From NCBI GenBank assembly GCA_001724025.1, contig MEDJ01000020.1:62001-126000 (forward strand): DNA of 64,000 nucleotides, in the 5' to 3' direction. Every line of letters starts with the position of its first letter. The first letter of the stretch is position 1. Position numbers and translations under genes: made by a program. Under the pieces are notes generated by a model. That model was not told the origin of the DNA, searched no databases, and was given only the letters and a program-made list of their open reading frames with translations. Source of the DNA: Acidobacteria bacterium SCN 69-37 (GTDB lineage Bacteria; Acidobacteriota; Vicinamibacteria; Vicinamibacterales; SCN-69-37). Below are positions 8,155 to 61,156 of the stretch, in pieces.

Positions 8155-8182
8155 CCCCGAGGCTGAAGCCTCGGGGCTCCGA
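8155..8182 (+). repeat. Palindromic repeat P1, GAGG type, copy 1
   Basis: Arms CCCCGAGGCT and AGCCTCGGGG around a GA loop, then CTCCGA. It lies in the divergent mazG/MBL gap. Translating it in frame would extend the MBL protein with the sequence PEAEASGL, a telltale of this repeat, so the upstream reading frame is not coding. Confidence 0.85.
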
Positions 8183-8221
8183 GAGTCTCCTCAAGGGGCC
8201 GTGTTGTACCATCTCGTGCTT

Positions 8222-9022
8222 GTGCGCGTGACGTTCCTGGGCACCGGGACGTCGCATGGCGTGCCCATGATCGGGTGCGACTGCGACGTCTGCCGGTCCA
8301 CCGATCCCCGTGACCAGCGTTTCCGGTCGTCGATCTACGTGGAGGGCGATGACGGCGGCTGTCTGCTCGTGGATACGACGACGGATCTGCGCACGCAGGC
8401 GCTGCGGGCCGGGATCCGGCGCGTGGATGCCGTGCTCTATACGCACGCTCATGCCGATCACATCTTCGGGCTCGACGAGCTGCGCCGCTTCACCATGATG
8501 ACGAAGCGGCCGGTGCCGCTCTACGGCTCCCGGCGCACGCTCGACCATCTGCGGCGGACATTCGGCTACGTCTTCGCGGCCGGTGCGCCGACAGGCGGGG
8601 GTGTCCCGAACCTGCGGCTGTGGCCGATCGAGGGCGCGTGCTGCTTCGGGACGACGGCCGTCGACATCGTGCCGATCCGGCACGGAACGTGGCACGTGCT
8701 CGGCTTCCGTGTCGGCGGGCTCGCGTACCTGACCGACTGCAACGCGATTCCGGAGACGTCGTTCGAGCGGCTGCGCGATCTCGACGTGCTCGTGCTCGAC
8801 GCGCTGCGGCCGAAGCCGCACCCGACCCACTTCTCGCTGGGAGAGGCCATCGCGGTGGCGAAACGGATCGGGGCCCGGCAGACGTATTTCACCCACATTG
8901 CCCACGAGCTGGGACACGCAGCCACCTGCGCGTCGCTGCCGCCGGGCCTGACACTGGCGTACGACGGCCTGGTGCTCGACGTGCCGGCCGGCGTGGCCAC
9001 GACGGTGCCGCCGCGGCCATGA
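8222..9022 (+). CDS. MBL-fold metallo-hydrolase, PhnP-like
   Basis: Metallo-beta-lactamase-fold phosphodiesterase-like enzyme, 266 residues. Visible motifs are FLGTGTSHGVP at the N-terminus, the CDCDVC zinc-knuckle-like cysteines of PhnP relatives, the HAHADH metal site near residue 75, and a late HFSLGEAIAVA with FTHIAHELGH. The open frame extends to 8090 but runs through palindromic repeat P1, so a GTG near 8216-8228 is the start. 8222 is preferred because TACCAT lies 9 nt upstream. It overlaps ribF by ATGA at 9019. PhnP hydrolyses cyclic phosphates in phosphonate breakdown; no phn genes are nearby, so the substrate is open. Confidence 0.85.
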   Translation: MRVTFLGTGTSHGVPMIGCDCDVCRSTDPRDQRFRSSIYVEGDDGGCLLVDTTTDLRTQALRAGIRRVDAVLYTHAHADHIFGLDELRRFTMMTKRPVPLYGSRRTLDHLRRTFGYVFAAGAPTGGGVPNLRLWPIEGACCFGTTAVDIVPIRHGTWHVLGFRVGGLAYLTDCNAIPETSFERLRDLDVLVLDALRPKPHPTHFSLGEAIAVAKRIGARQTYFTHIAHELGHAATCASLPPGLTLAYDGLVLDVPAGVATTVPPRP

Positions 9023-9984
9023 CGCGCCGGGACGCGTCCGGATCCTCCATGTCCATCGTCCGTTTCTATCCAGATGCCCCGAAGCCGGGGTGGCCGCGCC
9101 CGGTGGTGGCGCTCGGGAACTTCGACGGGCTGCACCGCGGCCATCAGCAGCTCGTCGACCAGATCCGTCGTCGCGCGGCCGAGCAGGCCGGCACGTCCGT
9201 GGTGCTGATCTTCGAGCCGCATCCGCCGCGTGTGCTGCGGCCGGACAAGGCCCCCCCGCTGATCATGACCTTCGATCAGAAGATCGAGGCCTTCGATCGC
9301 GCCGGCGTCGACGCCGTGGCCGCGGTCCGCTTTTCGCGCGAGGTGGCGCGCTGGGAGCCGGAGTATTTCGTCGAGGCCGTGCTCGTGGACTGGCTCCAGG
9401 CCGCCGAGGTGTGGGTCGGCGCGAACTTCCTGTTCGGCCGCGACAGGGCTGGGACGTTCACCCTGCTGCGGGCGCTCGGGGAGGACCGCGGGTTCCGGGT
9501 CGAGAAAATCGAGCCGGTCCTCTACAAGGACTTCGTCGTCTCGAGCACGCGCATCCGCCACCTGCTGGCCGAGGGCCGCGTGGACGAGGCCGGGGCCCTG
9601 CTCGGGCACCACTATTTCGTCGATGGCGAGGTCGTGCACGGCGACGGCCGTGGGCGCACGCTCGGGTTCCCGACGGCCAACCTGCGCGCCGAGAACGACA
9701 CGCTCGTAGCCGACGGCATCTACGTCACGATGGCGACGATCGACGGGACGTGCCATCGCGCCGTGACGAGCGTGGGCGTGCGGCCGACGATCGGCGACGG
9801 CCGCCGGACCGTCGAGACGTTCCTGCTCGAGGGGGACCACGACCTGTACGGCCGGCGGCTGCGGCTCGAGTTCGTCATGCGGCTGCGCGGCGAGCAGCGC
9901 TTCGAGAACCTCGAGGCCCTGGCCGCGCAAATCGCGGCGGACTGCCGCCAGGCGGCCACCCTGTTCGACCGCCTGCCCCTGTGA
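9019..9984 (+). CDS. ribF: Bifunctional riboflavin kinase / FAD synthetase RibF
   Basis: Makes FMN and FAD from riboflavin. About 321 residues, normal length. The N-terminal adenylyltransferase domain has VALGNFDGLHRGHQ (HxGH-like nucleotidyl-transferase site) and STRIRHLLAEG. The C-terminal riboflavin kinase domain has HGDGRGRTLGFPTANL and VTSVGVRPT. The frame is open far upstream. ATG 9019 overlaps the stop of the MBL gene (ATGA) and is chosen for coupling; ATG 9049 (MSIVRF) is an equally credible start from protein alignment habits. Neither has a ribosome site. Confidence 0.95.
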   Translation: MTRRDASGSSMSIVRFYPDAPKPGWPRPVVALGNFDGLHRGHQQLVDQIRRRAAEQAGTSVVLIFEPHPPRVLRPDKAPPLIMTFDQKIEAFDRAGVDAVAAVRFSREVARWEPEYFVEAVLVDWLQAAEVWVGANFLFGRDRAGTFTLLRALGEDRGFRVEKIEPVLYKDFVVSSTRIRHLLAEGRVDEAGALLGHHYFVDGEVVHGDGRGRTLGFPTANLRAENDTLVADGIYVTMATIDGTCHRAVTSVGVRPTIGDGRRTVETFLLEGDHDLYGRRLRLEFVMRLRGEQRFENLEALAAQIAADCRQAATLFDRLPL

Positions 9985-9994
9985 GCGGGCCTGA

Positions 9995-10000
9995 TAGAAT
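9995..10000 (+). promoter_or_regulatory. TAnnnT hexamer (TAGAAT) before the small gene and cysS
   Basis: It lies between the ribF stop and the ATG at 10011, with a gap of 10 nt and no Shine-Dalgarno. It could be a promoter for a leaderless transcript of the two-gene unit. Confidence 0.4.
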
Positions 10001-10010
10001 CGCTCCGCAC

Positions 10011-10277
10011 ATGCCCTCGACCGCGTTCACGCTGTGCGTTCCGGCCGACGACCCGTTCCGCGGCCTCGTCGCTGACGTCATGCAGGCGTATTTGAAGATC
10101 GCGGACACGGTGCCGGCGGCCTCGACCGCGACGTTCATCGCCGCCATCGCGGCGGCCGTCGACCGTCTGGCCGTCCCCGGCGCCGACATCACCGTCGTCG
10201 TCGACACCACGGACGCGCAGGTGGATGTGCGGGTGACGTGCGGCCACGCAACCGAGACCCTGACCCATCGTTCATGA
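10011..10277 (+). CDS. Small protein of unknown function, coupled to cysS
   Basis: 88 residues, not recognised. It is one compact alpha/beta unit without signal peptide or membrane helix. A predicted helix (FRGLVADVMQAYLKIAD) and a second (ATFIAAIAAAVDRL) are followed by two strands (ITVVVDTTDAQVDVRVTC). This faintly recalls the N-terminal half of RsbW-type GHKL ATPases, but no N-box or G-box is present, so that is only a guess. Its TGA overlaps the cysS ATG (ATGA), which supports it being translated. It might be a small regulator, but nothing visible assigns a function. Confidence 0.6.
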   Translation: MPSTAFTLCVPADDPFRGLVADVMQAYLKIADTVPAASTATFIAAIAAAVDRLAVPGADITVVVDTTDAQVDVRVTCGHATETLTHRS

Positions 10278-11686
10278 ATCTCTACAACACCCTGTCACGG
10301 ACGGAAGAACCCTTCGTGCCGGCCGACGGCCGTACCGTCCGGCTCTACAACTGCGGCCTCACGGTCTACGCGCGCGGCCACGTCGGGAATTTCCGGACGT
10401 TCGTCGCGATCGATGTCCTGCGTCGGACGCTGCGCTACCTCGAAGGGTACGAGGTGCAGCAGGTCACGAACTTCACGGACGTCGACGACAAGACGATTGC
10501 CGCCGCCGCGGCCGCAGACGAGCCGCTGCGTGCCTACACGGACCGCTACGTGGCCGCGTTCGGCGAGGATGCGGCGGTGCTCGGGCTGGAGCCCGTCGAA
10601 GCCAACCCGCGCGCCACCGACGACGAGAACATGCGGGCGATGGTCGAGATGATCGAGGCGCTCGAGGCGCGGGGGCACACGTATCGATCCGAGGGATCCG
10701 TGTACTTCCGCATCGCATCGCTGCCGTCGTACGGCCAGCTGGCGCGGCTCGACCACGAGGGCATGCAGGCCGGGGCGCGCGTCGACAGTGACGAGTACGC
10801 GAAGCAGGACGCGCGCGACTTCGTGCTGTGGAAGGCGTCGAAACCGGGGGAGCCGAGCTGGGATCTCGGGCTGGGACCGGGCCGGCCCGGCTGGCACATC
10901 GAGTGCTCGGCCATGGCGCTGCGGCTGCTGGGCCAGCCGCCGATCGATATCCACGGCGGCGGCATCGACCTGATCTTCCCGCACCACGAGAACGAGATCG
11001 CACAGGCCGAGGGCGCCACGGGCGTGCCGTTCGTGCGGTGCTGGTTCCACGTGGAGTTCCTCAACTTCGACAGCGAGAAGATGTCGAAGTCGATCGGGAA
11101 CGTCTTCACGGTGCCGGAGATCGTCGCGAGAGGCTTTCGCGGATCGACGCTGCGGTACCTGCTGATGTCGGTGCACTACCGCAAGCAGCTGACGTTCAGC
11201 TGGGAGATCCTCGAGCAGGCCGAGGCCGCGATGACGCGCCTGTCGGACTTCGTGGCGCGGCTCGGCCGGGTGACGGGGCCGGCGGCCGCTGTGGAGCTGT
11301 CCGCCCGCCTGGACCGTGCGCGCGCCGAGTTCCGCGAGGCCATGACCGACGACCTGAACGTGCCGCGCGCCCTGAGCGTGGTGTTCGATCTGCTGCGCGA
11401 GGTCAATGGCGCGATCGATGCCGGCACCCTGGGTGCGCCCGACGCGGCGGCTGTGCAGGAGACGTTCGCCTGGTTCGATCAGGTTCTGGGCGTGCTGTCC
11501 CTGCGCAGAGCAGAGGACGAACAGCCGCCGGTGCCCGTGGAGGAGATCGAGCAGTTGATCGAAGAGCGTCGCGCGGCGCGACAGTCGCGCAATTTCGCGC
11601 GCGCCGACGAGATCCGGAAGGATCTCGACGCACGGGGGATCGTGCTGGAAGATTCGCCGACGGGCACGCGCTGGAAGCGGAAGTAG
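10274..11686 (+). CDS. cysS: Cysteinyl-tRNA synthetase
   Basis: Charges tRNA-Cys; class I synthetase, 470 residues, normal length. The ATP-binding HIGH-like motif is HVGNFR and the KMSKS motif is present as SEKMSKSIGN. Zinc ligands are seen in LYNCGLTVY, WHIECSAMA and FPHHENEIAQ. ATG 10274 is chosen over an upstream in-frame start because it overlaps the preceding stop and gives the standard N-terminus MNLYNTLSR. The C-terminal DALR and anticodon-binding part ends in SRNFARADEIRKDLDARGI, as expected. Confidence 0.97.
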   Translation: MNLYNTLSRTEEPFVPADGRTVRLYNCGLTVYARGHVGNFRTFVAIDVLRRTLRYLEGYEVQQVTNFTDVDDKTIAAAAAADEPLRAYTDRYVAAFGEDAAVLGLEPVEANPRATDDENMRAMVEMIEALEARGHTYRSEGSVYFRIASLPSYGQLARLDHEGMQAGARVDSDEYAKQDARDFVLWKASKPGEPSWDLGLGPGRPGWHIECSAMALRLLGQPPIDIHGGGIDLIFPHHENEIAQAEGATGVPFVRCWFHVEFLNFDSEKMSKSIGNVFTVPEIVARGFRGSTLRYLLMSVHYRKQLTFSWEILEQAEAAMTRLSDFVARLGRVTGPAAAVELSARLDRARAEFREAMTDDLNVPRALSVVFDLLREVNGAIDAGTLGAPDAAAVQETFAWFDQVLGVLSLRRAEDEQPPVPVEEIEQLIEERRAARQSRNFARADEIRKDLDARGIVLEDSPTGTRWKRK

Positions 11687-11693
11687 TCGAATT

Positions 11694-11940
11694 GACCGTG
11701 GAGGGCACGGAGACCACGGAGGCGTTACTGTGTGGCGACGAGCGCGCAGGCGGGATCAGGAGAGACCAGAAACAAACGCGCCATCACTTACGCCGCGCGC
11801 TTGTTTCTGGTCTCTCCTGATCCCGCCGACGGCGACCGTTGGTCGCCGTCGGGCCGCATCGCGGCCCGATGCGCTCGTCGCCCGAGCCTGCGGCCAAAGA
11901 CGGGGGATCGGCTCCGTGCCCTCCATGTCCTCCACGGTTC
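11694..11940. repeat. Large nested palindromic element between cysS and manD
   Basis: Several layers of inverted repeat fill this gap. The core is a pair of 33-nt arms, 11749-11781 and 11795-11827, with one mismatch and a 13-nt loop. Outside it, 11734-11745 (GGCGACGAGCGC) pairs exactly with 11871-11882, and 11700-11712 pairs with 11912-11924. Two side hairpins sit in the right half: 11826-11852 (12-bp arms, GTT loop) and 11851-11867 (7-bp arms). There is no reading frame with credible coding character. It may be a non-autonomous mobile element or a very strong terminator for cysS. Confidence 0.75.
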
Positions 11941-11981
11941 GATCCCTCCACGGTTAGATCCCTCCGCGGTTCGGAGCATCC

Positions 11982-13190
11982 ATGAAAATCACTGACGCCC
12001 GCGTCTTCGTCTGCTCGCCCGGCCGGAACTTCGTCACGCTGAAGATCACGACTGACGAGGGCGTCTACGGTCTTGGTGACGCGACGCTGAATGGTCGGGA
12101 ACTGTCGGTGGCGAGCTATCTCCGCGACCACGTGCTGCCGTGCCTCATCGGTCGGGATCCGTTTCAGACCGAGGATATCTGGCAGTACCTCTATCGCGGG
12201 GCGTACTGGCGGAAGGGGCCCGTCGCGATGACGGCCATTTCGGCCGTCGACGTGGCGCTGTGGGACATCAAGGGCAAGGCGCTCGGACAGCCGCTCTACA
12301 ACCTGCTCGGTGGTCGGTGCCGCGAAGGCGTCACCGCGTACGGCCACGCCAACGGTCGAGACATCGAAGAGACCGCCGACGAGGTCGCCCGGCACCTGGC
12401 ACTGGGATATCGCGCCGTCCGTGCGCAGTCGGGTGTGCCGGGCCTTGCTTCGACCTACGGCGTGGCCAGGGACGGCAAGCCGTACGAGCCGGCCGAGCGC
12501 GGGCTGCCGACCGAGCACGTCTGGTCGACAGAGAAATACATGCGGCACGTGCCTGCGCTCTTCGAAGCGCTACGAGTGCGGTTCGGCGGTGACGTACACC
12601 TGCTGCACGACGCACATCACAGGCTGACACCGATCCAGGCCGCGCGCGTCGGTCGCGCGCTCGAGCCGTATCACCTGTTCTGGCTCGAAGATCCCACGCC
12701 TGCCGAGTTGCAGGACGGCTTCCGGATCATCCGCCAGCACACGACGACGCCGATCGCGGTGGGCGAGATCTTCGACAGCGTGTGGGACGCGAAGCAGCTC
12801 ATCAGCGAGCAGCTCATCGATTACCTGCGCATGACCGTGCTGCACGGCGGCGGATTGACGCCGATGAAGAAGACGGCGGCCTTCGCGCACATGTATCACG
12901 TCCAGACCGGCTGCCACGGCGCCACCGATCTGTCGCCGATCACGATGGCCGCGGCGTTACATTTCGATCTCTCGATCCCGAACTTCGGCCTGCAGGAGCA
13001 CATGCCGCACACGGCCGAGACCGACGCGGTCTTCCCGCACGCGTACCGGTTCGAGGACGGCTATCTGCACCCCGGCGAGGCGCCGGGGCACGGCGTGGAC
13101 TTCGACGAGGCGCTGGCCGAGCGCTATCCCTACCAGCGCGCCTATCTGCCGGTGAACCGCAAGGAAGACGGCACGCTCTGGGATTGGTAG
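11982..13190 (+). CDS. manD: D-mannonate dehydratase ManD (enolase superfamily)
   Basis: Dehydrates D-mannonate to 2-keto-3-deoxygluconate (KDG) in glucuronate breakdown. 402 residues, the standard ManD length, with the family N-terminus [21 protein letters not shown]. The residues known to matter in characterised ManD enzymes are all in place at the same numbering: metal ligands Asp210, Glu236 and Glu262, and catalytic Arg147, Tyr159 and His212. It converges on kdgK-eda, whose products take KDG onward. The intergenic region upstream is filled by a large palindrome and no clear promoter was seen. Confidence 0.95.
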
Positions 13191-13198
13191 CGAGGTTT

Positions 13199-13224
13199 CC
13201 CCGAGGCTGAAGCCTCGGGCTCCG
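13199..13224 (+). repeat. Palindromic repeat P1, GAGG type, copy 2
   Basis: CCCCGAGGCT, GA, then AGCCTCGGG (one G short), then CTCCGG. It is placed just after the manD stop and forms an inverted pair with copy 3. Confidence 0.8.
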
Positions 13225-13262
13225 GCGAGTCCGCAGGACGTCTGTCGGCCGCGCGCGTGTTT

Positions 13263-13290
13263 TCGGAGCCCCGAGGCTTCAGCCTCGGGG
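13263..13290 (-). repeat. Palindromic repeat P1, GAGG type, copy 3
   Basis: Inverted copy (TCGGAG then the palindrome with a TC loop), 38 nt from copy 2. The two lie back to back between the convergent manD and kdgK genes, suggesting a bidirectional terminator role or a two-copy mobile unit. Confidence 0.85.
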
Positions 13291-13297
13291 AGATCCG

Positions 13298-14338: not shown

Positions 14339-14985
14339 TTCGCCCCCCGCGCGCGCGCCACGTTTGCCACGATCGTCCGGCTCTTTTCGACGATCACCTC
14401 GAAGCGGCCGTCGGCAATCGCCTTCGTATCGAGCAGCGAGGTGCCGATGCCCACGGCCACCGCGCCGGCGGCAATCCAGTCGCCGGCATTGTCGACGGTC
14501 ACACCGCCGGTGGGCATCAGCTTGAGGTAGGGCATCGGGCCGCGGAGGTCCTTGAGGTAGCTGGGGCCGAGCGCCGTGGCGGGGAAGATCTTGATGAGGC
14601 GCGCCCCGCGCTCCCAGGCATCGAGCACCTCGGTGGGCGAAAAGCAGCCGGGGGCCGCGGGCACGCCGTGCGCGATCGCGGCCTCGACGATGGCCGGGCG
14701 GAACACGGGCGAGACGATGAATCGGGCTCCGGCGTCGACGACGCGCGCGACGGTCTCGGAATCGGTGACGGTGCCGGCGCCGAGCAGGAACCTGTCGGGC
14801 AGGTTCGCGGCGAGCCGGCGGATGTGATCGACGGCGCCCGGGACGGTCATCGTCACCTCCAGTGCGCGGACGCCACCCTCGACGAGGGCCGCGACCACGT
14901 CGGACAGGCGCGACGGATCGTCGAGGCGAATCACGGCCACGACGCCGGCATCCTCGATGGCGGCGAGAGTCTGTTCGATGGACAT
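14335..14985 (-). CDS. eda: KDPG aldolase (2-keto-3-deoxy-6-phosphogluconate aldolase)
   Basis: Splits KDPG into pyruvate and glyceraldehyde-3-phosphate, closing the pathway manD-kdgK-eda. 216 residues, class I aldolase TIM barrel. The Schiff-base Lys132 lies in ARLIKIFPA and the general acid/base Glu43 in RALEVTMT, both at the positions expected from E. coli Eda. LGAGTVTDSE is the phosphate-binding loop region. It is first in its operon. There is no ribosome site, and a perfect TATAAT lies only 8 nt before the ATG, so the mRNA is probably leaderless. Confidence 0.95.
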   Translation of the reverse strand: MSIEQTLAAIEDAGVVAVIRLDDPSRLSDVVAALVEGGVRALEVTMTVPGAVDHIRRLAANLPDRFLLGAGTVTDSETVARVVDAGARFIVSPVFRPAIVEAAIAHGVPAAPGCFSPTEVLDAWERGARLIKIFPATALGPSYLKDLRGPMPYLKLMPTGGVTVDNAGDWIAAGAVAVGIGTSLLDTKAIADGRFEVIVEKSRTIVANVARARGAK

Positions 14986-14993
14986 GGGCGCTG

Positions 14994-15859: not shown

Positions 15860-15873
15860 GGAGGAGAGTCGTC

Positions 15874-21937: not shown

Positions 21938-21964
21938 CGGAGCCCTGGGGCTTCAGCCCCAGGG
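21938..21964 (-). repeat. Palindromic repeat P1, TGGGG type, copy 4
   Basis: CGGAG then CCCTGGGGCT-TC-AGCCCCAGGG, paired back to back with copy 5 between the convergent SMP-30 and SDR genes. A degenerate partial copy precedes it at 21911-21925. Confidence 0.85.
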
Positions 21965-21975: not shown

Positions 21976-22003
21976 CCCCGGGGCTGAAGCCCCGGGGCTC
22001 CGA
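21976..22003 (+). repeat. Palindromic repeat P1, GGGG type, copy 5
   Basis: CCCCGGGGCT-GA-AGCCCCGGGG then CTCCGA, 11 nt after copy 4 and in opposite orientation. A degraded copy follows near 22024-22041. Confidence 0.85.
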
Positions 22004-22908: not shown

Positions 22909-22936
22909 CCCTGGGGCTGAAGCCCCAGGGCTCCGT
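22909..22936 (+). repeat. Palindromic repeat P1, TGGGG type, copy 6
   Basis: CCCTGGGGCT-GA-AGCCCCAGGG then CTCCGT, in the gap between two co-directional minus-strand genes. The rest of the gap to 23003 is GC-rich sequence without a gene. Confidence 0.85.
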
Positions 22937-31462: not shown

Positions 31463-32055
31463 GGAACTGGAGCCTTGTGCGGAGCCACCGGGGGGTGGCG
31501 ATGGCGATCGTCTGTGGGCTGGTGGTCGCCGGAGCGCCACGGCACCGCATCGCCGCCGCGTCGCCGGCGGTGACCGTGCACCTCGAATTGATCGAACAGC
31601 CCGCCTGCCTCGCCGAGCCCGATGGCTACCGCCTTGGCTTCGACGTCCGCGCCATCTACGTCAACGAGGGCTCGACGCCGGTGGCGATTGCCGCGGAGGC
31701 CGGCCGGATCGTGGCGGTCACGTTCGACATCGAAGGCGAGGCCGAGACCGTGGCGTTCGCCGTGCCGCCGGGGCTGCTGGTGTCGACGCCGCCTGCGGGC
31801 GCGCACCAGGTGCGGATGGCGCCGGGATGGGCGGTCAGCGAACGCACGGCTGTGTGGGTGCCGCTCTCCGACGGCAGTGGTCTCGAGCCGGGGACGCATC
31901 GCGTGCGCGTCGACGTGCGCGTGCCGCTCGACGGCGCGATGACGACGCTCTCGACGCCGCCGATGGCCGTGCAGATCGACGAGCCCGGTCCGGTCCAGGA
32001 GTGCGGCTCGTTCACGCTGCCGCTGCCGCCCGCAACGCCCGTCCCCCGAGGCTGA
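31459..32055 (+). CDS. Secreted hypothetical protein whose stop codon lies in a palindromic repeat
   Basis: 198 residues from GTG 31459, which overlaps the helicase stop (GTGA); ATG 31501 is an alternative start. An N-terminal hydrophobic segment (MAIVCGLVVAG) predicts export. The remainder is beta-rich, Ig-like in feel, with Val-rich strands (GYRLGFDVRAIYVNEGS and TLSTPPMAVQIDEPG). The protein ends PVPRG because the reading frame runs into palindromic repeat P1 copy 7, where the TGA in the arm/loop terminates it. The family is not recognised. Confidence 0.65.
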   Translation: MRNWSLVRSHRGVAMAIVCGLVVAGAPRHRIAAASPAVTVHLELIEQPACLAEPDGYRLGFDVRAIYVNEGSTPVAIAAEAGRIVAVTFDIEGEAETVAFAVPPGLLVSTPPAGAHQVRMAPGWAVSERTAVWVPLSDGSGLEPGTHRVRVDVRVPLDGAMTTLSTPPMAVQIDEPGPVQECGSFTLPLPPATPVPRG

Positions 32056-32071
32056 AGCCTCGGGGCTCCGA
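32044..32071 (+). repeat. Palindromic repeat P1, GAGG type, copy 7
   Basis: CCCCGAGGCT-GA-AGCCTCGGGG then CTCCGA. The TGA at 32053-32055 is used as the stop codon of the preceding gene. A half copy follows at 32080-32095. Confidence 0.85.
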
Positions 32072-32192
32072 AAAAACGAAGCCTCGAGGCTCCGAAAGAC
32101 CGATGGCCGGGCTGCCGTGCAACCGCGCGGATCGCTCGGGTCTGCGCGCGGCCGTCGGAGAAGGCGCGCGGCGGTCGGAGGTGCGTGGCCGG

Positions 32193-32220
32193 TCGGAGCC
32201 CTGGGGCTTCAGCCCCAGGG
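32193..32220 (-). repeat. Palindromic repeat P1, TGGGG type, copy 8
   Basis: TCGGAG then CCCTGGGGCT-TC-AGCCCCAGGG, opposite in orientation to copies 7 and 9 on either side. Confidence 0.85.
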
Positions 32221-32249: not shown

Positions 32250-32277
32250 CCCCGAGGCTGAAGCCTCGGGGCTCCGA
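32250..32277 (+). repeat. Palindromic repeat P1, GAGG type, copy 9
   Basis: CCCCGAGGCT-GA-AGCCTCGGGG then CTCCGA; the two following half copies repeat its right arm and flank. Confidence 0.85.
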
Positions 32278-32393
32278 AAAAACGAAGCCTCGGGGCTCCC
32301 AAAGACCGAAGCCTCGGGGCTCCGAAAGGCCGGACCGCCCGGCTCCGAGACACTGATGGCCGCGGAGCTGAAAAGGCGCGTGGGCGTCCGACG

Positions 32394-37169: not shown

Positions 37170-37197
37170 TCGGAGCCCCGGGGCTTCAGCCCCGGGG
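37170..37197 (-). repeat. Palindromic repeat P1, GGGG type, copy 10
   Basis: TCGGAG then CCCCGGGGCT-TC-AGCCCCGGGG, directly in the gap between the convergent hydrolase and nfo genes. Confidence 0.85.
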
Positions 37198-38218: not shown

Positions 38219-38246
38219 TCGGAGCCCCGGGGCTTCAGCCCCGGGG
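38219..38246 (-). repeat. Palindromic repeat P1, GGGG type, copy 11
   Basis: TCGGAG then CCCCGGGGCT-TC-AGCCCCGGGG, in the divergent nfo/rlmN gap. Confidence 0.85.
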
Positions 38247-38259: not shown

Positions 38260-38287
38260 CCCCGAGGCTTCAGCCTCGGGGCTCCGA
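38260..38287 (+). repeat. Palindromic repeat P1, loop-inverted copy 12
   Basis: CCCCGAGGCT-TC-AGCCTCGGGG then CTCCGA. Unlike every other copy with a right-hand CTCCGA flank, the loop is TC instead of GA, so the palindrome core is inverted relative to its flank. Confidence 0.8.
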
Positions 38288-53565: not shown

Positions 53566-56151
53566 ATGGTTCGTCGTGTGTTCGTCAGCCTTCTGCTGGC
53601 GATGATCGTTGTCAGTCCCTCTCAGGTGCGGGCGCAGGATGGCGCCGGCATCGTGTCCGGTATCGTCCGGGATGCTCTTGGCGGCGCGATTCCCGGCGCC
53701 AGTATCCGCGTGGTCAACGAGACGAGCCACGCGGCCGTCGACGTGGTCACCGACGCGCAGGGCGTCTATCGCGTCGTCGATCTGCCACCCGGGCCGTATC
53801 GACTCGAGGTGACCCTCAGTGGCTTCGACACCATCCTGCGTCGCTTCACGCTCGCGCCGGGTGGCACGCCCGTGTTCGATGTCTCGCTCGTGCCGTCGCG
53901 CTTTGCCGAAGGCGTGGTCGTGACGGCGCGGCGTGTCGAAGAAGCGGTGCAGGACGTGCCGATTCCCGTGTCCGTCGTGAGCGGCGACCTGGCGGCAGAG
54001 GCCGGGGCGTTCAACGTCGCCCGGGTCCAGGAGCTCGTGCCGACCGTGCAGTTGTACTCCACCAATCCGCGAAATACCGCGGTCAACATCCGCGGCCTCG
54101 GTGCCCCGTTCGGTCTGACGAACGACGGGATCGAGCCCGGCGTGGGCATGTATGTCGACGGCGTCTTCTATGCCCGGCCCGCATCGACGACGCTCGACTT
54201 CCTCGACGTGGCGCAGATCGAGGTGCTGCGGGGACCACAGGGCACCCTGTTCGGCAAGAACACCACGGCCGGCGCCATCCTGATCACGACGCGACGCCCG
54301 AGCTTCACGCGCGAGACGGCCGTCGAGCTGAGCTACGGCAACGAGGGCTTCGTGCAGGCGAAGGGCTCGATCACCGGACCGCTGGGATCGAAGGTGGCTG
54401 GCCGTCTGTCGTTCTCCGGCACGCAGCGCGACGGCACGGTCCTGAACGTCACCACGGGCGACGACGTGAACGACCTGAACAACGTCGGGTTGAAAGGGCA
54501 GATCCTGTATACGCCCACCGAGCACATGGCCGTCACGTTCTCGGCCGACAACACCCGGCAGCGCCCCGAGGGCTACGCGCAGGTTCTGGCCGGCGTGGCG
54601 CCGACTCTCCGCGCGGCCAATCGTCAGTGGCCCGCCATCGCCGCAGACCTCGACTACGCGCCGCCGAGCTACAACCCGTTCGATCGCGTGACGGATACGA
54701 ACAGCCCGTGGCGGTCGAACCAGGATCTCGGTGGCACCTCGCTCAACATCGACTGGGATCTTGGCCGTGGCCGCCTCACCTCGACGACCGCCTGGCGCTA
54801 CTGGAACTGGGCTCCGGCCAACGACCGCGACTGGACGGGGCTCGACGTGGTCTCGAAGTCGCAGGCCAGCTCGACGCACAGACAATGGACGCAGGAGATC
54901 CGCTACGCGGGCGATCTTCATCGCACGCTCGGCATCGTGATCGGATTCTTCACGTTCGGCCAGGATCTGAAGTCCGATCCCACGCACAAGACGGAGGCGG
55001 GCGCCGATGCCTGGCGCTATTCGCTCGCCCCGAGTGCCCAGGCCGCGACGCCGGGGCTGCTCGCGGGCTACGGGGAAGACACCGTCCTTTCGCTGAACAC
55101 GTCGAGCTCCGCGTTGTTCAGCCAGCTCGAGTGGCGCGTGACCAGCCGCTTCCGGCTGCTGCCCGGCATCCGGTTCAACTACGACCGCAAGCAGATGGAC
55201 TTCCGGCGTGCGGTCTACGGCGGCCTCGAGACGACCGACGCGGCGCTGATTGCGCTGCAGCGGCAGATCTATGCGCCGCAGGCCTACGACGCCGACAGCA
55301 GCGATACGAACTGGTCCGGCCAGATCTCGGGTGCCTACAAGCTGACGGATCGAGTGAACGCGTACGCGACGTACGCGACCAGCTTCAAATCGCTCGGTCT
55401 CAACCTGGGCGGCGTACCGAACGACGCGGCGGGCGTCCCGGCGCTCGACGCGGCCACCGTGAAGCCCGAGGCCGTCAAGCACGTCGAGGTGGGCCTGAAG
55501 ACGGAGCCCGCGCGCGGCGTCATCCTGAACCTGTCGGCCTACAACACCGGCATCGACGACTACCAGGTGCAGGTGCAGAACGCGCAGTATGGCGTGCAGC
55601 GTGGATACCTGGCCAATGCCGACGAGGTCCGTGTGCGCGGCATGGAACTGGAGGGCAGTGCGCGCGTCGGCGACCACCTGACGCTGTATGGGGCACTGGC
55701 CAGGACGGACGCGAAATACGTGCGGTTCGTCGATGCTCCCGTCCCGCTCGAGGAAACCGGCGGCGCGGCGCAGTCGAAGGACATCTCCGGCGGGCCGCTG
55801 CCCGGCATCTCGGACTGGGCCGGATCGCTCGGGGGCGAGGTGAAGAGCCGCGGACGGTTCTTCGGTCGCGACGGCGAGGTCTTCGGCGCCATCGACACGA
55901 GCCTCCGGTCGTCGTTCTCGTCCAGTCCGACACCGTCGGCGTACCTCGTGGTGCCGGCCAACGCGCTCGTCAACGCCCGCGTCGGCTTTCGCTGGACCGA
56001 CGGCTGGAGTCTGTCGATCTGGGCTCGTAATCTGCTCGATCGCGACTACTACGAATCGCTCCAGCCCGGCGCCGGCGGCACCGGCCTCTATACGGCCCAG
56101 CTCGGCGACCCGCGCGCCTACGGCCTGACGCTGCGGCTGAGCTTGCGATAG
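53566..56151 (+). CDS. TonB-dependent receptor with carboxypeptidase-regulatory domain
   Basis: 861 residues, signal peptide to VRAQ. An N-terminal CarboxypepD_reg domain (about 28-110: GIVSGIVRDALGGAIPGASIRVVNE) is followed by a FecA/CirA-like plug (about 125-240: EAVQDVPIPVSVV, VNIRGLG, YVDGVFYAR, EVLRGPQGTLFGKNTTAGAI) and a 22-strand barrel ending GLTLRLSLR. Unlike the first receptor this one has a classical siderophore-type plug. AGGAG lies 7 nt before ATG 53566. It is on the same strand as the peptidase genes but separated by a terminator, so it is its own transcription unit. Confidence 0.92.
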   Translation: MVRRVFVSLLLAMIVVSPSQVRAQDGAGIVSGIVRDALGGAIPGASIRVVNETSHAAVDVVTDAQGVYRVVDLPPGPYRLEVTLSGFDTILRRFTLAPGGTPVFDVSLVPSRFAEGVVVTARRVEEAVQDVPIPVSVVSGDLAAEAGAFNVARVQELVPTVQLYSTNPRNTAVNIRGLGAPFGLTNDGIEPGVGMYVDGVFYARPASTTLDFLDVAQIEVLRGPQGTLFGKNTTAGAILITTRRPSFTRETAVELSYGNEGFVQAKGSITGPLGSKVAGRLSFSGTQRDGTVLNVTTGDDVNDLNNVGLKGQILYTPTEHMAVTFSADNTRQRPEGYAQVLAGVAPTLRAANRQWPAIAADLDYAPPSYNPFDRVTDTNSPWRSNQDLGGTSLNIDWDLGRGRLTSTTAWRYWNWAPANDRDWTGLDVVSKSQASSTHRQWTQEIRYAGDLHRTLGIVIGFFTFGQDLKSDPTHKTEAGADAWRYSLAPSAQAATPGLLAGYGEDTVLSLNTSSSALFSQLEWRVTSRFRLLPGIRFNYDRKQMDFRRAVYGGLETTDAALIALQRQIYAPQAYDADSSDTNWSGQISGAYKLTDRVNAYATYATSFKSLGLNLGGVPNDAAGVPALDAATVKPEAVKHVEVGLKTEPARGVILNLSAYNTGIDDYQVQVQNAQYGVQRGYLANADEVRVRGMELEGSARVGDHLTLYGALARTDAKYVRFVDAPVPLEETGGAAQSKDISGGPLPGISDWAGSLGGEVKSRGRFFGRDGEVFGAIDTSLRSSFSSSPTPSAYLVVPANALVNARVGFRWTDGWSLSIWARNLLDRDYYESLQPGAGGTGLYTAQLGDPRAYGLTLRLSLR

Positions 56152-56167
56152 GGGAGGCGACGAGCGT

Positions 56168-56195
56168 ACGGAGCCCTGGGGCTTCAGCCCCAGGG
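56168..56195 (-). repeat. Palindromic repeat P1, TGGGG type, copy 13
   Basis: ACGGAG then CCCTGGGGCT-TC-AGCCCCAGGG, between the stops of the convergent TonB receptor and glcF. Confidence 0.85.
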
Positions 56196-56206
56196 GAACT
56201 TTGCTT

Positions 56207-57508
56207 CTATCCTCCGCGGATGGATCGATCGATCAGTTCGACCGGGTGTGCGAACTCGATCGATCGGCCCGTGCGGCGGGCGGTGGCCGCCATCTGCAGG
56301 CGGCACCCGGGGTTGGCGGTGACGACGACGTCGGGGCCGTGCGTCTGGAGTGCCGTCAGTTTCCGGACGCCAAGAGGGCGGGCCGCCTCGGGCTCGAGCA
56401 GGTTGTAGATGCCCGCGCTGCCGCAGCACATGTCGTCCCCCCCGTCGACCAGCTCGACGCCGGGAATGGTCGCGAGCAGGCGTCGGGGCGCCTGGCGCAC
56501 GCCCTGCGCGTGCGCCAGGTGACACGCGTCCTGATAGACCACGCGCAGCGGCAGCGGATGTCGTGGGGCGCGTGGTGGGCCGAGTTCGTCGAGCAGTTCG
56601 GTGATGTCGCGCACGCGCGTCGAGAACTGCCTCGCACGGTCGGCCCACGTGGGATCGTCCTTCAGGAGGTGGCCGTATTCCTTCATCGCCGACCCGCAGC
56701 CCGCGGCGTTGGCTGCGATGATGTCGACCCCCGCCTGCTCGAACGTCGCAACCGTGGCGCGCGCGAAGGCGCGGGCGTCGTCGAGCCGGCCGACGTGCAG
56801 AGCAAGAGCGCCGCAGCAGCCCTGGCGTGGCGGCGCGGTCACGTCGCAGCCCTCGGCGGCGAGCACGCGGGCCGAGGCGTCGTTCGTCTCGGGGAAGATC
56901 ACCTGCTGCACGCACCCGGTCAGCAGGCCGACGCGGCAGCGCGCGGGAGACGCGGCGGCCGTGTGAGTTGGTGTGCGCCGGAAGAGCGTCCGGAACGTCA
57001 CGGACGGAGCCGCGTCCATCAAGGCGTGCAGGCGACGCGGGAGCAGCGACAGCAACCCGATCCGGCGGGCCGCGGTCACGACCGGCTGCGCCACGACCAG
57101 CGGCAGCAGCGCGAGACGCATCCGTGCGCGATGCGGGAAGAGCCGGAAGGCCAGCCCGCGGAAAAGCCGATCGGCAAGTGGTCGCGTGTGCTGTGTTTCG
57201 ATCTGCGCGCGCGTGGCCTCCAGCAGCGGACCATACTGGACGCCCGACGGACACGCCGTGACACAGGCCAGGCATCCCAGGCATCGATCGAAGTGGCGCA
57301 CGAACGTGGCATCGATCGACGCGCGTCCCTCGAGCGCGGCCTTCATGAGGTAGATCCGCCCGCGCGGCGAATCCATCTCTTCCGCCCACAGCGCATAGGT
57401 GGGGCAGGTGGGCAGGCAGAAGCCGCAGTGGACGCACGCGTCGATCAGCGCGCGGTCCGGCACGTCCGGGCCAGAAAAGGCGCCGTGCGTGTGCGGCGCC
57501 GTCGTCAC
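56207..57508 (-). CDS. glcF: Glycolate oxidase iron-sulfur subunit GlcF
   Basis: 433 residues, membrane-peripheral subunit that passes electrons from GlcD onward. Two 4Fe-4S motifs near the N-terminus: CVHCGFCLPTCP and CLGCLACVTACP. Two CCG (heterodisulfide-reductase-like) domains: GCCGALALH around residue 240 and MCCGSAGIYN around residue 370. GTG 57508 overlaps the glcE stop (GTGA). It completes a GlcDEF set, so the operon probably oxidises glycolate or D-lactate to the keto acid with transfer to quinone. Confidence 0.95.
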   Translation of the reverse strand: MTTAPHTHGAFSGPDVPDRALIDACVHCGFCLPTCPTYALWAEEMDSPRGRIYLMKAALEGRASIDATFVRHFDRCLGCLACVTACPSGVQYGPLLEATRAQIETQHTRPLADRLFRGLAFRLFPHRARMRLALLPLVVAQPVVTAARRIGLLSLLPRRLHALMDAAPSVTFRTLFRRTPTHTAAASPARCRVGLLTGCVQQVIFPETNDASARVLAAEGCDVTAPPRQGCCGALALHVGRLDDARAFARATVATFEQAGVDIIAANAAGCGSAMKEYGHLLKDDPTWADRARQFSTRVRDITELLDELGPPRAPRHPLPLRVVYQDACHLAHAQGVRQAPRRLLATIPGVELVDGGDDMCCGSAGIYNLLEPEAARPLGVRKLTALQTHGPDVVVTANPGCRLQMAATARRTGRSIEFAHPVELIDRSIRGG

Positions 57509-58773
57509 AGTGGCCCTCTTCCAGCGCCGAGCGTGTCGTGCGGATCGCATGCGGCCTTCAGCGCCGGCCACAACGCGAGCTGGCCCCGCGTCGGGGCCCA
57601 GACGTCCACGAGGCGCCGCAGCGACGCGGCGGCGCGCGTGATGACGACGTGTCCGAATACGTCGCTGGTGCGCAGCGCGCGAATGATGCGTGCCTGGGCC
57701 TCGACGTCGTCACCGCCGAGACTGAGCACGCCGGAGCCCACGGCCACGCGACCGATCCAGTCGAACGCGATGTCACCGGCCACGCGTGTCAGGAATTCGG
57801 TGGCCTGCGCGAACGCGGCGGGCTTCCAACTCAGCCGCAGCTGGACGCGATCGGGATGCGCGCCCGCGGCCTCGTGCGCGCGCCACCAGGCATCGGCGTC
57901 GTCGCCCGAGGCCGTGGCCGTGGCGGCGCCAATCAGATCGGCGCACGCGCGGGTCTCGCGACAGGCATCGTCGATCGCTGCCGTGACGGACCCATAGCGC
58001 ACCAGTACGACCACCTCGTCTGCGGCTCCGTGTGCGACGTGCGCCTCGAACGCATCGGGCTCGCACTGACGCTGGCGCAGTTGATCGAGGAGCGCCGACA
58101 CGTCTGTCGGCCGGTTCGCGCGAATGCGCAGCGTCCTCGTGTCCGGGGGAACGGGCGACAGCTTGAACGTCGCGCTCACGATGACGGCCAGGCTGCCGTG
58201 GGATCCCACCATGAGTCGTCCCAGGTCGTACCCGGCCACGTTCTTGACGACGCGGCCGCCTGACGACGAGACGAGTCCGTCGGGCATGACGACGGTCATG
58301 CCGATGAGCCGATCGCGCGATGTGCCGTGACGATGGCGCCACGGACCCGCATCGTTGGTTGCCAGCACACCGCCGATCGTGGCCAGGTGTGCGTCCGGTG
58401 GATCGAACGGGAGGAATTGCCCGCGTGTGGCGAGTGCGCGGTTGACGTCGTGCAGCCGGGCGCCGGCCTCGACGGTGGCCGTGAGATCGTCGGCTTCGTG
58501 CGCCAGGATCCGATCGAGTCGCGTCGTGCGGAGCAGGACGTCGACATCGCGCGGCGGACGTCCCCAGCCGTCCTTGCTGCCCGCGCAGCGCACCACGACC
58601 GAGAGCCGTGTGGACGACGCCCAGCGGAGCGCCTCCGCGACGTCGACGACGCCTGCCGGTTCGAGTACCACCGCCGGCATCACGCCGTCTATTTCGTCAG
58701 GCGCCGCCGGTGGTCTCGCGTGGCAGCCGGCGAGTCCGGCCGCGTCCCGCAGGCGATCGGCAGCCGTCACCAT
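57505..58773 (-). CDS. glcE: Glycolate oxidase FAD-binding subunit GlcE
   Basis: 422 residues of the VAO/FAD_binding_4 fold: FDPPDAHLATIGGVLATNDAGPWRHRHGTSRDRLIG and VVKNVAGYDLGRLMVGSHGSLAVI are the FAD-site stretches (quoted in parts). The family is shorter than GlcD and lacks its C-terminal HGxGxxK-type active-site segment. ATG 58773 overlaps the end of glcD by 7 nt; the long upstream frame is rejected because it lies in glcD. Confidence 0.92.
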   Translation of the reverse strand: MVTAADRLRDAAGLAGCHARPPAAPDEIDGVMPAVVLEPAGVVDVAEALRWASSTRLSVVVRCAGSKDGWGRPPRDVDVLLRTTRLDRILAHEADDLTATVEAGARLHDVNRALATRGQFLPFDPPDAHLATIGGVLATNDAGPWRHRHGTSRDRLIGMTVVMPDGLVSSSGGRVVKNVAGYDLGRLMVGSHGSLAVIVSATFKLSPVPPDTRTLRIRANRPTDVSALLDQLRQRQCEPDAFEAHVAHGAADEVVVLVRYGSVTAAIDDACRETRACADLIGAATATASGDDADAWWRAHEAAGAHPDRVQLRLSWKPAAFAQATEFLTRVAGDIAFDWIGRVAVGSGVLSLGGDDVEAQARIIRALRTSDVFGHVVITRAAASLRRLVDVWAPTRGQLALWPALKAACDPHDTLGAGRGPL

Positions 58774-60242
58774 CGGTCGGCCACTCCGGCGATTTCGGTC
58801 GCGTGCGCCCGGTAGGGCCCCGGCACTTCGCCGCACAGTCGCGGCGTGGGGAAAAGCTTGCCGGGATTGCAGAGCATGGCCGGATCGAACGCGCGGCGGA
58901 CGCGCTGCATCGCCGCGAGATCGTCGGGCGAGAACATCTTCGGCATCGAACAGGCTTTGTCCACGCCCACACCATGTTCGCCCGTGAGGGAGCCGCCGGC
59001 TTCGAGGCAATAGGCCAGGATCTCGGTGGCCACTGCCGCGGCGCGATCGGTCTCGCCGGGCACGCTGGCGTCATAGCAGATGAGCGGGTGCAGGTTGCCA
59101 TCACCGGCGTGGAAGACGTTGGCGATGCGCAGGCCCGACGAGGCCTCCAGCGCGCGGATGCGGCCGAGCACCTCGGACAGGCGCGATCGCGGCACCACGC
59201 CGTCCTGCACGTAGTAGTTCGGCGAAACGCGTCCCATGGCGGCAAAGGCCGCCTTGCGGCCCTTCCAGATCCGCGCGCGCTGCGCGTCGTCGGCGGCCAC
59301 GTCGATGTGTGTCGATCCGCGGCGCCGACACAGATCGAGCACCTGCGCGAAGTGTGCCTCGACCTCGGCGCCAGGTCCGTCGAGTTCGACAATCAGGATG
59401 GCCGCCGCGCGGGGGAAGTCCGGGTGCACGGCCGCCTCGGCGGCTTCGATGGCCAACGCGTCCATCATCTCGATTGCGGCAGGGACGATGCCCGCGGCGA
59501 TGACGTCGGAGACCACGTGCCCGCCGGCATCGACGCTGTCGAAGGCCGCGAGGAGCGTGCGGACCGTGGCCGGACGACGGAGCAGGCGCACGGTGACGCG
59601 CGTGATGACGGCGAGGGTCCCTTCCGATCCGATCAGCAGGGCCAGCAGACCGGGGCCCGGTTCGTCGGCGAGATCGCTGCCGATCTCCACCAGTCGTCCA
59701 TCGGGCAGCACGGCCTGCACGGCCGCCACGTGGTGCACCGTGAAGCCGTACTTCAGGCAGTGTGCACCGCCAGAGTTCTCCGCGACGTTCCCGCCAATCG
59801 AACAGACCTGCTGGCTCGAGGGATCCGGGGCGTAGTAATAGCCGAACGGCGCGACGTGCTGCGTGATGGCGAGATTGGTGACGCCCGGTTCGACCGTGAT
59901 CAGCTGGTTGGGCAGATCGACGTGCAGGATTCGGGTGAGGCGCGAGAGGACGATCACCACACCATCCGCGACAGGTTGCGCACCGCCGGACAGCCCGGTG
60001 CCGTGCCCACGCGCCACGAACGGCACGCCGGCTTCCGCGCAGGCGATGACGACCCGCTGCACCTCGCGGGCCTCGGCCGGCAGGACGACGACACCTGGCA
60101 GGGCGCGGGCGTGCGAGAGCGCGTCACACTCGTAGGCGAGCAGAGCCTGGGGATCGGTGTGCACGTGCGCAGCACCGACGATGCCTCGGAGCGTCTCCAG
60201 GAACCCGGGAGGTCCGACGGTACGCGGCGCCGGTGGCGTCAT
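58767..60242 (-). CDS. glcD: Glycolate oxidase catalytic subunit GlcD
   Basis: 491 residues, FAD-linked 2-hydroxyacid oxidase. FAD-site motifs are FVARGHGTGLSGG and CSIGGNVAENSGGAHCLKYG; the C-terminal catalytic segment has FHAGDGNLHP and SLTGEHGVGVDK, as in GlcD and D-lactate dehydrogenases. Together with GlcE and GlcF it points to glycolate rather than a stand-alone D-lactate dehydrogenase. It starts in an ATGA overlap with the metallophosphoesterase gene, so all four genes are one operon. Confidence 0.95.
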   Translation of the reverse strand: MTPPAPRTVGPPGFLETLRGIVGAAHVHTDPQALLAYECDALSHARALPGVVVLPAEAREVQRVVIACAEAGVPFVARGHGTGLSGGAQPVADGVVIVLSRLTRILHVDLPNQLITVEPGVTNLAITQHVAPFGYYYAPDPSSQQVCSIGGNVAENSGGAHCLKYGFTVHHVAAVQAVLPDGRLVEIGSDLADEPGPGLLALLIGSEGTLAVITRVTVRLLRRPATVRTLLAAFDSVDAGGHVVSDVIAAGIVPAAIEMMDALAIEAAEAAVHPDFPRAAAILIVELDGPGAEVEAHFAQVLDLCRRRGSTHIDVAADDAQRARIWKGRKAAFAAMGRVSPNYYVQDGVVPRSRLSEVLGRIRALEASSGLRIANVFHAGDGNLHPLICYDASVPGETDRAAAVATEILAYCLEAGGSLTGEHGVGVDKACSMPKMFSPDDLAAMQRVRRAFDPAMLCNPGKLFPTPRLCGEVPGPYRAHATEIAGVADRW

Positions 60243-61075
60243 CGCGACGGCACCGTTCCGGGTTCGGGGAGGAAGGGGCGGCGACGCGTGGCGTAGATGC
60301 GTTCGGCCGGCACGCTGACGAGTGTGGCCTCGGGCCAGCGCAGCGCCGTGAGACGCCAGCCGAACACGCAGCCGGTGTCGATGCCGATCGTGCGGTTCCG
60401 CCAGGTGGCCTCGAGCACCGGGGTGTGGCCGTAGACCACGTGTGCCGCACCTGTGTAGTCGGCAATCCAGGGATGCCGCGTGTCGACGTCGCGCGGGTCG
60501 ACGCCGTCGCCGTGCGTGCCGTTGGCGGCCAGATCCCTGACGTCCGGTGTGTCGACGCCGTGCAGCGGCTCGGGCAGGCCCGTGTGCGCCACGACGAGCC
60601 GGCCGTCGTCGAAGCGATAGTGACCGGGCAGGGCGCCGAGGAAGGCGCGCGCGCGGTCGCGCGTCTCGGCAGACTCCGCGTCGAACTCGGCGACCGTCGT
60701 GTCGAGTCCGTAGAGCAGTGGCAGCGCCTCACCACCGAGGTAGCGCTCGGCCTTCAGGTCGTGATTGCCGGCGACGCAGCCTGCCGCGCCGTTGTCGACC
60801 ATCCGCATCACGAGATCGACCACCGCCACGCTGGCCGGGCCGCGGTCGACCAGGTCGCCGACGAAGACCGGCAGCCGCCCCGTCGGTGATCGCCAGATCG
60901 CCCGATCGTCACGCGTGTAGCCGAGCGTGGCCAGCAGCGCGTTCAGTTCGTTGAAGCAGCCGTGGAGGTCGCCGATGATGTCGAACGGCCCGGACAGATG
61001 ACGCTGGTCGAGCGCGAGCATGCGGCGTCGCGCATCGCGTCCGTCGCCGGCCGGGAGCACCGGGTGTCGAGTCAT
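60239..61075 (-). CDS. PPP-family metallophosphoesterase (ApaH/PrpE-like)
   Basis: 278 residues. Metal-site motifs of the serine/threonine-phosphatase-like fold: FDIIGDLHGCF, VFVGDLVDRGP and VAGNHDLK, then the His in VVAHTGLP and YGHTP. It resembles PrpE/ApaH-type enzymes (protein phosphatase or Ap4A hydrolase) and the phosphatase part of bacterial Pnkp, without a kinase domain. It is the first gene of the glcDEF operon (ATGA coupling). In that place phosphoglycolate would be an attractive substrate, since its product is the GlcD substrate, but this is inference; classical phosphoglycolate phosphatases belong to the HAD family. Confidence 0.82.
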   Translation of the reverse strand: MTRHPVLPAGDGRDARRRMLALDQRHLSGPFDIIGDLHGCFNELNALLATLGYTRDDRAIWRSPTGRLPVFVGDLVDRGPASVAVVDLVMRMVDNGAAGCVAGNHDLKAERYLGGEALPLLYGLDTTVAEFDAESAETRDRARAFLGALPGHYRFDDGRLVVAHTGLPEPLHGVDTPDVRDLAANGTHGDGVDPRDVDTRHPWIADYTGAAHVVYGHTPVLEATWRNRTIGIDTGCVFGWRLTALRWPEATLVSVPAERIYATRRRPFLPEPGTVPSR

Positions 61076-61128
61076 GCGTGCAACAGGATGACGGACCCGT
61101 GACGGTATGCGCAAGGCGGGGAAGTTTT

Positions 61129-61156
61129 TCGGAGCCCTGGGGCTTCAGCCCCGGGG
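61129..61156 (-). repeat. Palindromic repeat P1, hybrid copy 14
   Basis: TCGGAG then CCCTGGGGCT-TC-AGCCCCGGGG. The left arm is TGGGG type and the right arm GGGG type, leaving one T-G mismatch. It lies between cysA and the phosphoesterase gene. Confidence 0.8.

Follow-up and report, generated by a model that had tools for sequence, protein, structure and literature searches.

The window analyzed here, a whole stretch of 64,000 nucleotides on contig C20 of Acidobacteria bacterium SCN 69-37, contains 14 copies of a short tagged palindrome and half copies of the same element. The genome measures 4.43 Mb (4,432.7 kb), has a G+C content of 69%, and is the one genome by which the species is represented here. 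We are highly confident that these palindromes are a family of repetitive extragenic palindromic (REP) elements that, together with the REP-associated tyrosine transposase (RAYT, or TnpA-REP) encoded elsewhere in the genome, make up a REPtron in an acidobacterium. Read in its own sense, the element consists of 5'-CGGAG, a 10-nt arm, the dinucleotide TC, and a second 10-nt arm. The strand of a copy is the one on which the GGAG tag lies 5' of the hairpin, and a copy is called exact if it matches the degenerate 27-nt pattern CCCYGRGGCTKMAGCCYCRGGGCTCCG. The copies in the window are as follows.

8155 to 8181, minus strand: REP copy, CGA arms, exact match; overlaps the end of the called open reading frame 7258-8166
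13199 to 13224, minus strand: REP copy, CGA arms, 1-nt deletion in one arm
13264 to 13290, plus strand: REP copy, CGA arms, exact match
21938 to 21964, plus strand: REP copy, TGG arms, exact match; first half of a tail-to-tail doublet with the 21976 copy
21976 to 22002, minus strand: REP copy, CGG arms, exact match; second half of the doublet with the 21938 copy
22909 to 22935, minus strand: REP copy, TGG arms, exact match
32044 to 32070, minus strand: REP copy, CGA arms, exact match
32194 to 32220, plus strand: REP copy, TGG arms, exact match; first half of a tail-to-tail doublet with the 32250 copy
32250 to 32276, minus strand: REP copy, CGA arms, exact match; second half of the doublet with the 32194 copy
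32298 to 32325, minus strand: half copy, 4 mismatches; tag and tag-side arm kept, other arm lost
37171 to 37197, plus strand: REP copy, CGG arms, exact match
38220 to 38246, plus strand: REP copy, CGG arms, exact match; tail to tail with the 38260 copy
38260 to 38286, minus strand: REP copy, CGA arms, exact match; the sole copy among 121 with a GA apex when read from the tag side
56169 to 56195, plus strand: REP copy, TGG arms, exact match
61130 to 61156, plus strand: REP copy, discordant arms (TGG on the tag side, CGG on the other), matches the degenerate pattern

A preliminary description of the window had reported at least 14 full copies, and all 14 of its palindrome coordinates are correct; 13 of the 14 match the pattern exactly, and the copy at 13199 misses one G in one arm. 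It had assigned the copies to non-coding gaps, which is mostly so, the copy at 8155 overlapping the 3' end of the called reading frame 7258-8166. It had also given each palindrome a CTCCGA on one side. CTCCG is present in 14 of 14 copies, while CTCCGA is present in only 10 (three have CTCCGT and one has CTCCGG), and this directional flank can be restated as the 5' tetranucleotide tag of the REP read on the other strand, usually with one further base. The apex, described as GA or TC, has a fixed orientation, since it reads TC from the tag side in 13 of the 14 window copies and in 120 of 121 elements of the larger sample defined below. A matching change in the opposite arm, as claimed, is found in 13 of 14 window copies, with the palindrome at 61129 as the exception. 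The three arm types, which we call TGG, CGA, and CGG, are real, but further types exist (the TGA, GGTCT, and GGACCT forms).

Because the arms are runs of G and C in a G+C-rich genome, chance or base composition has to be considered as the source of the palindromes. We rejected this explanation, whose probability is practically nil: dinucleotide shuffles of the window (n = 100) yielded a maximum of 0 pattern matches against its 13 exact copies, and the reversed genome yielded 0, whereas a search of the actual genome recovers 250 exact copies, 120 on one strand and 130 on the other. The enrichment over a random model on which the preliminary description had staked its reading is thus present. 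An insertion linked to a tRNA was likewise rejected, as the window holds neither a tRNA nor a tmRNA, and no known structured RNA in the window matches Rfam at gathering thresholds.

To describe the element beyond the window, we used a non-random sample made up of the window and 40 stretches from contigs C1, C2, C3, C8, and C9 (853.6 of 4,432.7 kb). With up to 4 mismatches allowed, this sample contains 121 elements, 86 of them exact and 6 at the limit of 4 mismatches; since a 453.6-kb reversed control gives 3 raw hits at that level, chance may account for a few of these 6. In the 76 copies that deviate from the pattern at no more than 2 positions, tag and hairpin are near-invariant. Conservation fades a few bases beyond them, where T is frequent ahead of the tag and the hairpin is followed by a purine-rich stretch and then AC. 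The GGAG tag precedes 87 of the 88 perfect cores with a TC apex in the sample, and the 88th is the apex-reversed copy, which carries the tag on its other side. None of the 88 perfect cores is tagged GTAG.

The two arms of the element vary together. At arm position 4, the 121 sample elements have C-G in 60 cases, T-A in 53, and other combinations in 8; at position 6, they have G-C in 76, A-T in 38, and other combinations in 7. The mutual information is 0.80 bits for position 4 and 0.67 bits for position 6, far above the maxima of 0.11 and 0.08 reached in 2000 shuffles of the columns, and the pairing of 0.96 in register drops to 0.21-0.52 once the partner is slid by 1-3 columns. The preliminary description had named independent arm mutation across the genome as the observation that would speak against a paired structure; the genome copies instead keep their arm pairing. 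The covariation is real, but within one genome it is not by itself proof of selection, since a few types have been multiplied by copying, and common descent of the copies means that the arm changes are not independent events. Related species offer better evidence that the hairpin is under selection, as their arms differ and yet remain self-complementary: GGGCC/GGCCC in G005, GGACC/GGTCC in G007, and GGGTC/GACCC in G008, compared with GGGGC/GCCCC here. Minor forms of the G005, G007, and G008 arms are also present in this genome.

The preliminary description had pointed to REP elements spread by RAYT transposases as the nearest analogy. The genome encodes one PF01797 (Y1) protein, and its gene lies on contig C1, in agreement with the earlier statement that the window, on C20, contains no such transposase. 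The protein scores 106.7 bits against the model for REP-associated tyrosine transposases (NF047646; cut-off 80) and 34.5 against the IS200 equivalog model, whose cut-off of 55 it does not reach. The only solved relative found by sequence is TnpArep (4er8; E = 1.1e-6). The HUH motif and the tyrosine region are both present. The residues reported to read the tag in E. coli are W94, Q95, R104, E100, and H101, with D and R noted as variants of the last two (PMC6006769, section 14); the residues that correspond to E. coli W94, Q95, E100, H101, and R104 are W, Q, D, R, and R in the protein studied here.

The RAYT gene is embedded in copies of the same palindrome, which supports the REP/RAYT analogy. 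Seven REP copies, five of them exact, lie within about 250 bp of the conserved domain; they flank it as groups of three and four and occur in both orientations. The listed 310-aa open reading frame of the RAYT extends upstream through REP copies, and judging from this arrangement the true start is probably further in. This neighborhood also bears on the idea that the gene is instead a TIRYT, bounded by terminal inverted repeats (TIRs) in a TIRtron, and that the palindromes are self-complementary TIRs. TIRYTs have been published for several Acidobacteria, and some TIRs are self-complementary repeats (PMC3733652). In addition, 12 of 119 copies have the TIR motif GGGGWSAS at their 3' foot, compared with 2% when flanks are random (flank counts use 119 of the 121 sample elements, as two lie too near an end). 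However, 107 of the 119 copies lack this motif, the gene is flanked by tagged hairpins in mixed orientations and not by one long inverted pair, the palindrome is present in 250 copies, and the tag-reading residues match those of RAYTs. We therefore consider a TIRtron very improbable.

Half REPs that retain the tag and the tag-side arm adjoin full copies at 32068-32095 and 32298-32325 of the window and beside the RAYT (locus L011, about 2000-2125). These halves may be remnants of recombination within REP clusters. On contig C3, a block of three REPs with a similar spacer is found twice, about 4 kb apart (G000 C3:158351-158511 and C3:154109-154270; L140), and therefore some clusters have spread as a whole.

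We compared this arrangement with that in G001, a genome of the same genus that is 99% complete in 210 contigs. G001 has no RAYT match and no REP, and the count of REPs is also 0 at 3 mismatches. At locus L163 of G001, a glycosyltransferase gene with its end at 2616 overlaps the next gene, whose start is at 2606; between the same two genes, the genome studied here carries 991 bp with the RAYT and its REPs (L011, 1186-2176). The glycosyltransferases of the two genomes are 77% identical, and the downstream genes also correspond (41% identity over 78 residues, E = 5e-18). Neither a RAYT match nor REPs were found in G003, which belongs to the same family. Among the 14 family genomes compared, pattern matches number 332, 155, 13, and 27 in the four with a RAYT read as GGAG and 0-12 in the other ten, although the pattern was built on this genome's arms and favors near relatives of its REP. 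These other ten comprise three read as GTAG, two without a RAYT match, and five without a tag read (G004 and G010-G013).

We examined 29 RAYT loci of relatives (30 loci less that of the genome studied here). Repeated palindromes tagged GTAG, GTGG, or GGAG are present at 24 of the 29. When 110 RAYT loci (80 + 30) were read by rule, 54 were labeled GTAG, 8 GTGG, and 8 GGAG, and 40 received no label; the rule needs a TTYA apex, and the unlabeled 40 include L099, L108, L118, and L121, which are visibly GTAG, while the GGAG labels of L100 and L102 rest on one palindrome each. Tagged hairpins near RAYTs have the TTYA apex in 203 of 279 cases for GTAG, 42 of 68 for GGAG, and 32 of 50 for GTGG. On a tree of 102 different RAYT proteins, from which eight duplicate-protein rows had been dropped beforehand, the seven GGAG rows require two changes, a number as low as which was reached in none of 500 shuffles (mean 6.9), and five of these rows cluster with this genome's RAYT in one well-supported group. 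The proposed switch from GTAG to GGAG may therefore have happened twice. The GTGG label, by comparison, is scattered, its 7 changes being no fewer than in shuffled labels. We also sought a residue that reads the switched tag base but claim none: several columns differ between GGAG and GTAG rows, and with seven rows in two groups these differences are inseparable from relatedness.

Some of these relatives show features of their own. L092 (G027) carries about 20 similar REPs in one orientation, one every 37 bp, beside the RAYT gene, and L121 (G016) has a long regular REP array beside its RAYT gene with a period of about 56 bp. A second large GGAG family is found in G005, a genome of the same bacterial family: it numbers 155 matches when up to 3 mismatches are allowed, its arms are distinguished by a paired change adjoining the apex, and it carries both CGGAG and TGGAG tags. 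In G037 and other genomes of its order, up to 12 matches to the RAYT model occur per genome, mostly below the curated cut-off, which suggests that a second, more distant Y1 group exists in that order.

Support for the identification of the palindromes as a REPtron includes a single RAYT that lies among its palindromes, the absence of both from G001 of the same genus, and the like arrangement at 24 of 29 loci of relatives. Several points weigh against it. The nearest REP on each side of the RAYT is in the same orientation, the inverted copies coming next in the cluster. Five of the 29 relatives' loci (L093, L095, L101, L109, and L115) have no repeated tagged palindrome. The tag is GGAG and not GT[AG]G. 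CT is the usual cut dinucleotide, and it occurs at offset -3 in 26 of 119 copies; the base columns there are T-rich without C enrichment, and we discarded this candidate cut-site signal, as T-richness accounts for the count. Finally, no movement was observed in the one genome of the species analyzed, and mobility by the RAYT is what we infer from family knowledge and from co-occurrence.

REP copies lie mostly between genes. In the sample, 98 of 121 element centers are outside called genes compared with 23.1 expected, and the 23 centers inside genes include over-extended gene ends because the gene caller, which uses self-trained codon scores on the longest open reading frames, is crude. With the same crude calls, the gaps that hold window copies are convergent for 6 copies, co-directional for another 6, and divergent for 2, in line with the earlier report of all three. 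These counts bear on the proposal that selection maintains the copies at gene ends for a function in DNA or RNA, as bidirectional terminators, 3'-end stabilizers, or protein sites, their origin being secondary. A copy is present in 14 of 68 convergent gaps, in 34 of the 201 co-directional ones, and in 5 of the 74 divergent ones. The excess of convergent over divergent gaps (p = 0.025) speaks for this proposal, as do the stable, perfect hairpins with their pairing kept. Divergent gaps hold copies too, however, so the earlier conclusion that a pure terminator role does not explain them all stands, even though convergent gaps are the commoner setting. In addition, no T run is conserved in the base columns that follow the hairpin, and the proposal accounts neither for the directional tag nor for the connection with one RAYT. 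G001 and G003, which belong to the same bacterial family, lack the REP family; the host lineage therefore does not need it. On balance, we regard selection at gene ends as an improbable account of the family. The copies may have a side role at transcript ends.

REP copies are also often close to one another. In the sample, 86 of 121 copies have a neighbor within 200 bp, and adjacent pairs are tail to tail in 18 cases, head to head in 24, and in tandem in 9; the centers of tail-to-tail pairs are mostly 26-51 bp apart. Genome-wide, exact tail-to-tail pairs with a spacer of at most 30 nt number 33. With arm types read by eye, 26 of these are TGG/CGA (one with discordant arms), 3 are TGG/CGG, 2 are CGA/TGA, and 2 are alike by their tag-side arms. 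Both of the latter have one partner with discordant arms, so that fully homotypic pairs number 0 of 33. Shuffling leads one to expect 13.1 alike pairs of 33, and as few as 2 never occurred in 100,000 shuffles; because some pairs are near-copies of each other, this is a measure of association and not a count of events. In the looser sample, one of 18 tail-to-tail pairs is alike, but its members are 158 bp apart and their arms differ elsewhere. The three arm types thus partly reflect doublets with unlike halves. Among 22 head-to-head pairs, 3 are alike compared with a mean of 7.6 (2.1% of shuffles are as low), and CGG/CGG, TGG/TGG, and CGA/CGA are each found.

Heterotypy of this kind could be a matter of plain descent, in which a TGG/CGA master beside the RAYT multiplied without any selection against like halves, and we hold the prospects of this explanation to be evenly balanced. 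TGG/CGA makes up 26 of the 33 tail-to-tail pairs as well as the pairs beside the RAYT, some pairs share spacers and are clearly related copies, and the head-to-head pairs also lean toward unlike halves, if less strongly, a leaning not expected from a rule that applies to the doublet only. On the other hand, the spacers differ widely, three TGG/CGG and two CGA/TGA pairs show that TGG/CGA is not the only unlike combination, and fully alike doublets are lacking even though alike pairs exist head to head. The folding energies also bear against plain descent. Using DNA folding energies and four real or typical spacers, we found that an alike doublet gains 17-20 kcal/mol by forming one long hairpin in place of two REP hairpins, compared with 4-7 kcal/mol for TGG/CGA and 10-15 kcal/mol for the two other mixed types. 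The longest uninterrupted Watson-Crick run in the long hairpin is 27 bp in an alike doublet and 10 bp in TGG/CGA, although TGG/CGA, too, folds best into a single long hairpin, an imperfect one. The doublet data agree both with selection against long hairpins and with multiplication of a TGG/CGA master located beside the RAYT. A preference for unlike halves in REP dimers is known, and protection from SbcCD-type clearance has been suggested as a reason (Di Nocera et al., PMC3733652, section 14).

These data, combined with what is known of the RAYT family, allow us to propose how the REPtron would work. In single-stranded DNA, for example during replication, the arms would fold into a hairpin, and the one RAYT of the genome would bind this hairpin with the GGAG tag at its foot. 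Its HUH/tyrosine site would then cut at a nearby dinucleotide and paste copies elsewhere, those that survive being mostly between genes. The likely mobile unit would be the tail-to-tail doublet with unlike halves, most often TGG and CGA. The sequence data themselves show the anatomy and copy number of the element, its association with the RAYT gene, the lack of both in a species of the same genus, the preserved pairing, and the heterotypic doublets; the binding, cutting, and copying steps, like the reason for heterotypy, are what we infer from the family. We further suggest, tentatively and with somewhat less than even confidence, that an acidobacterial RAYT lineage changed its tag from GTAG to GGAG while keeping the AG and that, in addition, selection against long hairpins keeps the halves of its doublets on arms that cross-pair poorly.

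The element shares much with described REP systems. Like gammaproteobacterial RAYT-REPs, it is a tagged hairpin of 20-30 nt in tens to hundreds of copies, with a tyrosine transposase gene among the REPs and compensatory changes that preserve pairing (PMC2817692). The REPs of Haemophilus influenzae and Thioalkalivibrio have the same CTTCAG apex (PMC2817692, table). In contrast to these systems, the tag is GGAG and not GT(A/G)G, and the RAYT sits in a cluster with the nearest REP on each side pointing in the same direction. Perfect stems of 6-13 bp, short TY loops, and dimers that favor unlike stems are shared with the GTAG-tagged superfamily (PMC3733652), whose named tags are GYAG, GYRG, GTRG, GTMG, and GTGG; because GGAG is outside these named variants, we do not file the family in that superfamily as defined. 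As in the REPINs of Pseudomonas fluorescens, for which inverted doublets are the proposed replicative unit and singlets remnants (PMC3116915), the likely mobile unit is an inverted doublet, but the heterotypic doublets found here need not form one long hairpin and their spacing is shorter. E. coli TnpA-REP (PMC8266576; 4er8) resembles the present system in its HUH and tyrosine regions, its tag-reading residues, and its mosaics of unlike REPs, and group 3 TnpA-REPs have perfect stems with an important loop (PMC8266576). E. coli REPs differ in having a bulged stem and a strict need for GTAG (PMC8266576).

Within the phylum, the TIRtrons and TIRYTs of Acidobacteria have a related transposase family, but the repeats that bound TIRYT genes are terminal and inverted and have no relation to REPs (PMC3733652, sections 16-17), whereas the gene studied here lies among tagged REPs. 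Acidobacteria are also named among the hosts of class 3 proteins with atypical structures (PMC6006769). Tyrosine transposases with repeats are therefore known in the phylum, and we saw no description of acidobacterial REPs of the present design in the literature searched. As a separate word, GGAG occurs 0 times in the main texts, figures and supplements being outside the search, of PMC3733652, PMC2817692, PMC8266576, PMC6006769, PMC3116915, and PMC3686654. The formal departure from described REPs is GGAG for GT[AG]G, and we do not claim that it is unreported.

These findings document RAYT/REP systems in an acidobacterial family in which related species hold their own REPs beside their own RAYTs. 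In the guide model, the last two bases of the tag choose the cut site (PMC8266576); the GGAG tag, which keeps the AG that is proposed to choose the CT cut site, is a natural test of this model. PMC3733652 leaves open why REP dimers prefer unlike halves, and the arm types provide a clean case in which to ask this, since the prevailing doublet, TGG/CGA, is the one that gains the least energy from joining into one hairpin among the doublets computed.

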